DNA of 64,000 nucleotides, from NCBI GenBank assembly GCA_019694575.1, contig JAIBBR010000001.1:1-64000 (forward strand). The letters run 5' to 3'. A program made the translations under genes and the position numbers. Below the pieces are notes generated by a model, which worked only from the letters and a program-made list of their open reading frames with translations, made no database searches and had not been told where the DNA came from. Source of the stretch: Myxococcaceae bacterium (GTDB lineage Bacteria > Myxococcota > Myxococcia > Myxococcales > Myxococcaceae). This document shows positions 1,892 to 3,665 of the stretch, piece by piece; the first letter of the stretch is position 1; the number at the start of each line of letters is the position of its first letter.

Positions 1892-2716
1892 TTATGCCCG
1901 GCTGCGACGCCCTGAGAATGCCTCGCTGAACGCCGACAAGTCTTGCTCGCGTTTGAGCAGCGCACCCAAGAAGGGCAGATTTTCGTCGAGCTTCACGCTG
2001 GTGATGCCCGAAGCCTTGAGCGCGGCCAGCCAGTCGACCAGCTCACTGGTGCTGGGGCGTTTGCGCAGCCGGGTGAAGTTGCGCAGCTCGTAGAAAATCT
2101 CCATCGCTTGGGTCACCAACTTGTCTGTCAAATCAGGGTGGTGAACCCTGACGATGCGCTTCATCAACGCCTCGTCGGGAAAGTCAATGAAGTGAAAGAC
2201 ACAGCGCCGCAAAAACGCGTCGGGCAGGTCTTTCTCGTTGTTGCTGGTGATGATCACCACGGGGCGGTTCACCGCTGCCACTTCGCGATCAGTCTCGATA
2301 ATGCGAAAGCGCATGCGATCGAGCTCATGGAGCAAGTCGTTGGGGAACTCCAAGTCGGCTTTGTCGATTTCGTCGATCAGCAGCACTTGCCGGCTCGGCG
2401 CGGCGAAAGATTCTCCCAGCGGCCCCAAACGAATGTACTTGTTGATGTCGCGCACGTCGTGATCGTTGAAGCGCGAGTCGTGCAAACGTTGCACCGCGTC
2501 GTACACATACAACCCGTCTTGGGCGCGGCTGGTGCTCTTCACGTGCCAGGTGAGCAGCGGCAGGTTGAGCGCTTTAGAAACAGCTTCAGCGAGCAGCGTC
2601 TTGCCGGTGCCAGGCTCGCCCTTGACAAGCAGAGGGCGTTGTAACGCCAGCGCGCAATCGACGGCCGCACGCAGGCTTTCATTGGTGAGGTACGACTCAG
2701 TTCCCGTAAAGCGCAT
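1892..2716 (-). CDS. MoxR-family AAA+ ATPase
   Basis: A protein of 274 residues with Walker A GEPGTGKT (33-40), Walker B LLIDEID, and a sensor-1/arginine-finger region SNNEKDLPDAFLRRC. All are intact, so it should hydrolyse ATP as a hexamer. MoxR ATPases act as chaperones that insert cofactors or assemble complexes together with a VWA-domain partner. Here the partner gene follows immediately in the same direction, and a cyclic-nucleotide-binding gene closes the set. The three are probably co-transcribed. Upstream lies the 182-bp inverted-repeat element, so the promoter must lie within or beside that element. Confidence 0.93.
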   Translation of the reverse strand: MRFTGTESYLTNESLRAAVDCALALQRPLLVKGEPGTGKTLLAEAVSKALNLPLLTWHVKSTSRAQDGLYVYDAVQRLHDSRFNDHDVRDINKYIRLGPLGESFAAPSRQVLLIDEIDKADLEFPNDLLHELDRMRFRIIETDREVAAVNRPVVIITSNNEKDLPDAFLRRCVFHFIDFPDEALMKRIVRVHHPDLTDKLVTQAMEIFYELRNFTRLRKRPSTSELVDWLAALKASGITSVKLDENLPFLGALLKREQDLSAFSEAFSGRRSRA

Positions 2717-2750
2717 GGGCGAACGTATATGCGTGGTGTGCAGGTTGCGC

Positions 2751-2932
2751 TAGAGCGCCGAACAGGTTACCGGATCGTCACGAGGGTGCTGAGACCGAAG
2801 CGAGGCGGGCGCCCGAGGAAGGAGCCCCGGAGGCGTGCCGTTGGGCACGTCGAGGAGCGGACTGACGAGGCCGCAGGCCGCAGCGAGAGGATCGGCAGCC
2901 GCAGTAGGTCGGGTAACCTGTTCGGTGCTCTA
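2751..2932. repeat. 182-bp element with 21-bp terminal inverted repeats (MITE-like or structured RNA)
   Basis: TAGAGCGCCGAACAGGTTACC (first 20 bases of 2751-2771 plus one) is repeated inverted at 2912-2932 with a single mismatch, which would be a G-U pair in RNA. The interior is GC- and purine-rich and contains a perfect CGGGCGCCCG palindrome near 2806 and a GTGCC/GGCAC stem with a 4-base loop near 2835-2849. It also contains GGCC/GGCC around 2870. It encodes no convincing protein. It sits between the end of the oxygenase gene and the start of the MoxR gene, both leftward. It could be a non-autonomous transposable element, a retron-like or other folded RNA, or a long attenuator. No second copy was seen in this window. 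Confidence 0.65.
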
Positions 2933-2945
2933 GGGCTCTAGCAGT

Positions 2946-3665
2946 TTACGGCTCGAGCGTTTTGCGCAGTGCTTCGCTGTTCGACATGCCACGGCGGGCG
3001 CGGTCTTCGAGAAACGCGGCGAACCCGGCGCGTGATTCGATCTTGAACGAGGGCACAGCCGCCAAGAACCGTGGAGCCAAATGGTACTGCTCGAGCACCA
3101 CGCTCAAACGGAGATTTCCCGAAGGTGGCAACGCTGTAACTTCGTGCTCCAAGTCGCCGCGAAAGTGCAGCAACAAACCGGGTTGGGGCTGAATGCAAGC
3201 CACGGCGCGGTCTTTACGCCACAGCCGAAGCGCGCCGCCTTCTCTCGGCGGCACCGTCAGGTACAGCACGCTCACCCACAATGGTGTGGCGGTCACATCT
3301 CCGCTCGGCCCTCGCAATGTGCCGTCGAGGTGCCGACCCACCGCAGCGTTCTCGTTCAAAACCAACACATTGAGGTACCAAGCGTTGGGCGCAGGTGTCT
3401 TGCCGAGCAACCGGGCTTTCATGCTGCGCAACCGCAAGGTGGCTTTTTCGTGAAGCGCCAAGTCGAGAAAGGGAGTCCACTCGGGAAAACGCTCCTTCAC
3501 CCGCAATAAGCCGTCAGCAGTGAACGTGATGGCAAAGCCCCGGCTGCCCTTAAACGAACCAGCCAAAGTGCTGCGGTCGAGCAGCAAAGACCCCAACGCG
3601 GCGTCACGCAGGCGCGAGAGCGCTTCGCCAGTCAATGCTTCAGGCTGTGCCACCCACGCGGCCAA
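2946..3665 (-). CDS. 2-oxoglutarate/Fe(II)-dependent oxygenase-like protein
   Basis: A protein of about 239 residues with the facial triad of prolyl-4-hydroxylase-type oxygenases: H112-x-D114 in GRHLDGT, a distal H174 in GDLEHEV, and R186 (NLRLSVVLEQY) in the position that holds 2-oxoglutarate. The strand spacing fits a double-stranded beta-helix. It has no signal peptide, so it should be cytoplasmic. The substrate is unknown; relatives hydroxylate proteins or small molecules. The start is uncertain: TTG at 3665 gives the full length, with only a weak GAGAGA upstream, and a GTG four codons later is also possible. It stands alone, divergent from the PilZ-AMIN gene. Confidence 0.75.
   Translation of the reverse strand: MAAWVAQPEALTGEALSRLRDAALGSLLLDRSTLAGSFKGSRGFAITFTADGLLRVKERFPEWTPFLDLALHEKATLRLRSMKARLLGKTPAPNAWYLNVLVLNENAAVGRHLDGTLRGPSGDVTATPLWVSVLYLTVPPREGGALRLWRKDRAVACIQPQPGLLLHFRGDLEHEVTALPPSGNLRLSVVLEQYHLAPRFLAAVPSFKIESRAGFAAFLEDRARRGMSNSEALRKTLEP

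Follow-up and report, generated by a model that had tools for sequence, protein, structure and literature searches.

The stretch of DNA analysed here (the window) comprises 64,000 nucleotides from a Myxococcaceae genome. Between a MoxR-type AAA ATPase gene and a predicted 2OG-Fe(II) oxygenase-like gene lies a 182-bp element at 2751-2932, which an earlier note on this DNA had picked out for its inverted ends. The features of the locus are listed below.

1892..2716, minus strand: MoxR-type AAA ATPase (Pfam AAA/AAA_5), a neighbour outside the element, which lies 34 bp upstream of its ATG
2750..2753, no strand: left copy of the 4-bp target CTAG, which stands at both ends here
2751..2771, plus strand: left terminal inverted repeat (TIR), 20/21 complementary to the right end and common to about 40 other ends in the same genome and to IS1182-family ends
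2754..2929, plus strand: MITE proper, the 176 bp between the CTAG copies, repeated in the genome at 90-100% identity in complete and contig-end copies
2777..2908, plus strand: conserved structured core, supported by covariance model R1 (118 bits, E 6e-27 in the window) and by covariation counts
2912..2932, minus strand: right TIR, pairing with the left end at 20/21
2930..2933, no strand: right copy of the 4-bp target CTAG
2946..3665, minus strand: predicted 2OG-Fe(II) oxygenase-like gene (Pfam 2OG-FeII_Oxy_3, E 2.4e-5, just under the curated cut-off), a neighbour whose 3' end faces the element

The two ends (left, TAGAGCGCCGAACAGGTTACC; right, reverse complement TAGAGCACCGAACAGGTTACC) agree at 20 of 21 positions, and their single mismatch is a G-T pair (G-U in RNA), both as the earlier note had described. 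In an unbiased inverted-repeat scan of the 64 kb, with spacing within 400 bp, the arms extended to 28 nt at 89% (2747-2774/2909-2936) and outranked every other long pair of the window, where all longer arms are 73-77% complementary. The strong internal folding that had been claimed was also recovered: as RNA, the 182 nt fold at -107.5 kcal/mol, compared with -74.6 +/- 3.95 kcal/mol for 200 dinucleotide shuffles (z = -8.33). This fold depends on the strand, with -107.5 kcal/mol for the plus strand and -84.2 kcal/mol for the minus strand, and the DNA fold is likewise strand-biased (-52.8 vs -43.1). The distance to the MoxR ATG is indeed 34 bases, and the description of the element as neither a gene nor a normal promoter region holds as well. 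No promoter or terminator pattern was found at the element, and its core has no common reading frame; apical loops of 9-12 nt shift the frame between relatives, which rules out a coding core. Rfam gave no match on the whole window, on the element (gathering or E-value mode for these two) or on seven related loci; a single chance-level match, in L261, fell outside the element.

Copies, target sites and shared ends

The source genome (5.28 Mb in 220 contigs) contains at least 15 complete copies of the element that are 90-100% identical, together with 9 further copies cut at contig ends and a number of decayed fragments. The earlier note had stated that the element would be a private sequence if it had no other copy and did not covary; the genome search rules this out on the first count, and the covariation described below does so on the second. 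Nine contigs (C191, C123, C97, C214, C32, C211, C111, C4 and C188) end within the element, mostly at about 127 bp, a length that suggests an assembly k-mer. Such repeats break metagenome assemblies and hide copies. Viral contigs gave no match to the element, nor did a plasmid collection at blastn sensitivity.

Most copies start with CTAG followed by AGC and finish with GCT followed by CTAG. With the CTAG at 2750-2753 and 2930-2933 as the duplicated target, the element proper spans 2754-2929. Considering that CTAG is palindromic, and that the copy at L011 has unequal 4-mers on its two sides, a true duplication for this end type is shown only by the copy at L004, the informative non-palindromic case, in which TTAG is duplicated on both sides. 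Empty sites all come from sister elements, in which the same core is carried by other ends; none is shown at the window locus, because synteny beside moxR is not conserved. The sister elements make clean 3-bp duplications of TCA or TGA in relatives. In genome G045, the filled site L237 reads GAGGTC TGA CAGCGCC...GGCGCTA TGA GCCGG, and the empty site at L325 reads GAGGTG TGA GCCGG. Four further insertions (L233, L234, L240 and L243) are flanked by duplicated TCA, and two other Anaeromyxobacter genomes, which lack the insert, have contiguous homologues of the empty sites that the joined flanks of the G045 insertions match.

The TIR of the element, TAGAGCGCCGAACAGGTT, also bounds a complete IS1182-family insertion sequence in the relative G013 (L105:760-2484; TIRs TAGAGCGCCGATCAGGTTT/TAGAGCGCCGAACAGGTTT), which has CTAG at both flanks and encodes a transposase recognised by NF033551 (286.6 bits against a cut-off of 270). 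Over 18 bp the element TIR is identical to the right end of this IS, and the identity between the element and IS ends stops after about 18 bp. IS1182-like ends with the same TIR also occur at two contig ends of the source genome (C10 and C135), where the encoded C-terminus matches the G013 transposase at 75% identity over 28 aa; among the assembled contigs of this genome, no complete transposase gene with this TIR was found beyond these IS ends. A pattern search with the TIR returned three interiors behind the same end, namely this element, a second palindromic element, and IS1182-family ISs.

In short, the feature is 182 bp long, non-coding and bounded by 20/21 TIRs, it is dispersed in copies, and duplications and empty sites accompany it and its sister elements. 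It is therefore a MITE, that is, a non-autonomous transposable element, of IS1182 type and new as a family, which bears out one of the readings that the earlier note had offered. Its mobility is well supported. It is probably moved by a transposase encoded separately; from the shared ends, we infer that this is an IS1182-type enzyme.

The second palindromic element, of about 162 bp, was seen in G018 and G001 (L104:1722-1883, L071:1358-1519 and L087:1359-1519). It combines the same ends as the window element (TAGAGCGCCGAACAGGTTA) with a different core, which again has GA-rich loops on one strand and which R1 matches at 26.7 bits (E 5e-5), better than it matches ERIC; G018 has 23 matches to the TIR. 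This second core also occurs with other arms (GAGCGCGTGAATCCATCCCC) in G070 (L337, L339, L341 and L343) and in G045 (L239:41-245), where it adjoins a copy of the first element. Separately, G045 carries nine near-identical IS1182-family copies (L108, L112 and L114-L120) with ends GCTGAGAGAGCGTGAAGGAATCGG. These ends bear no relation to the TIRs that the core elements of G045 carry, which rules out this IS as the mover of those elements. For the Anaeromyxobacter ends, a pattern search for an autonomous IS gave only core elements, truncated core copies (L361 and L364) and background.

For the genomic context, we used 80 non-redundant insertions with usable flanks, picking open reading frames by third-position GC. 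With respect to the neighbouring genes, 32 insertions were tandem antisense, 20 convergent, 16 tandem sense and 9 divergent, with one flank unassigned in 3. Tandem antisense thus exceeded tandem sense (p = 0.03, uncorrected) and convergent exceeded divergent (20 vs 9, p = 0.06, uncorrected), and the excess at gene 3' ends was not significant alone (88 vs 69, p = 0.15). At the window locus, too, the neighbouring genes transcribe the minus strand. These orientation data speak against a simple requirement for sense co-transcription. The ends of the element often contain the stop codon (TAG or TGA) of the neighbouring gene. This supports a mode of insertion that falls on or close to stop codons and leaves the host gene intact. 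Insertions of this kind give genes new 3' ends.

A conserved core under exchangeable ends

When relatives were searched, the inner part of the element proved to be conserved in other families and the ends did not. This core (2777-2908) consists of 2-3-bp helices alternating with GA-rich internal loops, closed by an 8-bp hairpin cap. The covariance modelling that the earlier note had called for was carried out on two alignments. In the first (A1; 13 sequences, MAFFT), which was made independently of the structure, 24 of the 40 pairs show compensatory change. The second comprises 99 distinct sequences and was fitted to the structure, with A1 giving the same picture; here, 94.5% of the cells are paired, changes on both sides occur in 34 of the 40 pairs, and the covariation score reaches 0.486, compared with 0.151 when shuffled and at most 0.077 when slid. 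The internal loops are more conserved than the stems, with mean top frequencies of 0.889 and 0.759, respectively (p = 1.5e-4). The loops read CGAG/CGAG or CGAG/CGCAG, and the words CGAG, GAGC, CGCAG and GACGAG are invariant. In the loops, 80% of the bases are purines, compared with 51% in the stems, and the purines lie on one strand only. Many GGA motifs had suggested a CsrA sponge, a candidate that was dropped because GGA is not the conserved feature.

The combinations CGAG/CGAG and CGAG/CGCAG are the setting in which tandem sheared G.A pairs classically occur, and we predict that the GA/GA and GA/GCA internal loops adopt this form. At helix positions read on the plus strand, G.T outnumbers A.C by 182 to 55, or by 118 to 55 without one conserved wobble. 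This excess points to the plus strand as the folded strand, with the proviso that it partly reflects shared ancestry and that related sequences inflate the counts. The loops stay nearly constant from family to family, over different GC contents and whatever end type surrounds the core; in the lower-GC genome G188, the stems have been rewritten to A-T and the loops kept. Through these comparisons, we show at the sequence level that selection keeps the inner 132 bp able to fold as a hairpin on one strand. Of the suggestion in the earlier note that the element might be some other structured RNA, a covarying, strand-specific hairpin core has been borne out, and the RNA state itself is a prediction. 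While the interior of a bacterial MITE is usually treated as leftover filler, here it is the most constrained part.

With R1, the core turns up in 37 of the 145 genomes from the order and in 41 of the 195 from the phylum; core counts per genome are to be read as "at least". The named matches are mostly Anaeromyxobacter and Myxococcaceae MAGs. The shape of the core is kept across many myxobacteria, though its exact sequence is not. A covariance model of this kind finds such elements where they are unannotated. In addition, a Deltaproteobacteria MAG (SJ496) contains diverged relatives of the core at 49-56 bits (L179, L183, L187, L190 and L218), four of which (L179, L183, L190 and L218) have no clear paired arms; these relatives may form a lineage of the element in their own right. 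We make no claim for the matches in one MAG of Planctomycetota (L169 and L173) and one of Burkholderiales (L212), which are incomplete and score close to chance.

At least five end types carry the core, and in a tree of the cores those with the same end type mostly, though not always, group together. In G045, the cores of L235 and L233 are identical at 130 of 132 positions (98.5%), and their arms are unrelated to each other, each being self-complementary. Either gene conversion acting on the cores of two MITE families or transfer of the core as a module would explain this. The same pattern of a near-identical core with unrelated, self-complementary arms was seen for L236 against L233. Another arrangement was observed at L320 (G057:C1:691715-692170), where four cores lie head-to-tail in units of about 108 bp, with no ends between them.

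Function of the core and likeness to known repeats

Taken together, we favour, with a probability of about 0.8, the reading of the element as a MITE with a probable IS1182-type mover and a conserved, strand-specific hairpin core. In this model, an IS1182-type transposase encoded elsewhere would recognise the 18-21-bp ends and insert the element at CTAG or TTAG sites. Considering that such sites often overlap a TAG stop, the host gene would stay intact and gain a hairpin in its 3' untranslated region. The hairpin would act when the plus strand is single-stranded, most likely as RNA, and the rod, similar to that of ERIC, might alter the processing or decay of transcripts that run through it, which could make insertions tolerable. 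The last two steps are the more tentative ones, and the effect of the hairpin would be exerted either on mRNA or through single-stranded DNA. A hairpin function of the ERIC type can be tested directly with stem-swap and loop-swap mutants.

The second of these options is the main competitor of the RNA reading, with a minor yet appreciable share of the probability. It holds that the core works as single-stranded DNA, the exposed plus strand folding into the GA-rod and aiding excision, copying or targeting, with RNA being irrelevant. The same core is found under ends that fit different transposases, as expected for a general aid to transposition, and antisense copies outnumber sense copies. The strand bias of the DNA fold agrees with this as well, and the CGAG context favours sheared G.A pairs in both DNA and RNA. 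However, DDE transposases act on double-stranded DNA, and a hand count in the complete genomes G045 and G057, with the origin assumed at coordinate 1, gave no orientation bias. On the same count, we rejected single-strand transposition with a replication-fork bias.

An ordinary MITE with a functionless core, conserved through youth or gene conversion and with a palindrome inherited from its origin, appears improbable. The copies within the source genome are 90-100% identical, and homogenisation would plausibly explain the identical cores under different ends in G045. Between families, however, the stems compensate (34 of the 40 pairs) and the loops stay fixed, and the rewriting of the G188 stems around retained loops is not expected of neutral decay.

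A regulatory leader of the moxR operon, which the earlier note had proposed from the position of the element upstream of the ATG, is very unlikely and was not borne out: no core was found within the fetched flanks of the moxR orthologues of 11 relatives, copies adjoin unrelated genes, there is no promoter-like site, and the minus strand, which is the one transcribed into moxR, is the less strongly folded of the two. A retron msr-msd or similar reverse-transcribed RNA, another proposal of that note, would suit a long structured RNA from the myxobacteria, in which retrons are well known, and is nevertheless the least credible of all, since the adjacent genes encode cNMP-binding, VWA/CoxE-like, MoxR, 2OG oxygenase-like and AMIN proteins, with no reverse transcriptase among the six flanking genes, Rfam gave no match, and the target duplications indicate cut-and-paste insertion.

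Among known systems, the element is like the IS1182-family ISs and their MITEs in having the TIR of the G013 IS and a 4-bp target, as the 4-bp duplications reported for the IS1182 member ISPse1 (PMC3281130). Unlike the ISs, it lacks a transposase gene and its interior is unrelated to theirs; moreover, its core also occurs with ends and TCA/TGA duplications that do not fit IS1182. REP/REPIN sequences with RAYT transposases are likewise mobile palindromic repeats between genes. Their hairpins are much shorter and tagged GTAG or CGTC (PMC3733652), whereas the present element has ends that fit a DDE transposase family and lies between duplicated targets. The Correia/NEMIS, RUP and CIR MITEs are short and palindromic, and their transcripts form long stem-loops (PMC2229807, PMC10969869). 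They differ in sequence, hosts and ends, TA termini being described for them (PMC2229807), and in the literature searched a covarying core under different ends is not described for them. Nor did that literature, drawn largely from outside the subscription journals, describe this element, or a covariation analysis or end exchange for bacterial MITEs; earlier work had already remarked on A-G mispairs within bacterial MITE stems (PMC2229807).

The closest likeness is to ERIC, which is likewise an imperfectly palindromic sequence that has short TIRs, encodes no protein, occurs between genes in multiple copies and has been reported at the 3' ends of genes. Unlike the present element, ERIC has TA-type ends and target (here CTAG/TTAG, and TCA/TGA in the Anaeromyxobacter elements), lives in enterobacterial hosts, and is shorter and AT-richer. 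An ERIC query matches 339 records in the plasmid collection in which the window element matches none, and the recognisable 127-bp ERIC sequence is absent from the element. The covariance model links the two weakly: R1 matches three of seven real ERIC copies, taken from plasmid records, over the full length of the model on the plus strand (E at most 0.012), the best at 15.8 bits (E 0.003 in 1.7 kb). Since 15.5 bits are also reached by chance in the 64-kb window, we read this likeness as "works like" and not as membership.

The shared architecture is a nearly full-length hairpin with purine-rich loops on one strand only. In the seven ERIC copies the internal loops are 79% purine (80% in the core here) and the stems 51% (as here), and the strand with the purine loops is the more stable one in every copy. 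A broader idea, which we consider unlikely, is that the GA-rod hairpin is a self-standing module with its own function, passed across phyla between transposons with different ends and transposases, and that this hairpin, the second core (G018, G001, G045 and G070) and ERIC belong, by descent or by convergence, to one widespread class of structured mobile elements bound by a host or transposon factor. By analogy, the nearest precedent for the function of the core may be found in Yersinia, where ERIC copies at the 3' ends of genes alter mRNA decay via RNase E in an orientation-dependent manner (PMC2229807, PMC10969869). In its organisation, the element is a new variant in an ERIC-like architecture, with a conserved, strand-specific hairpin core that is independent of the ends that carry it.
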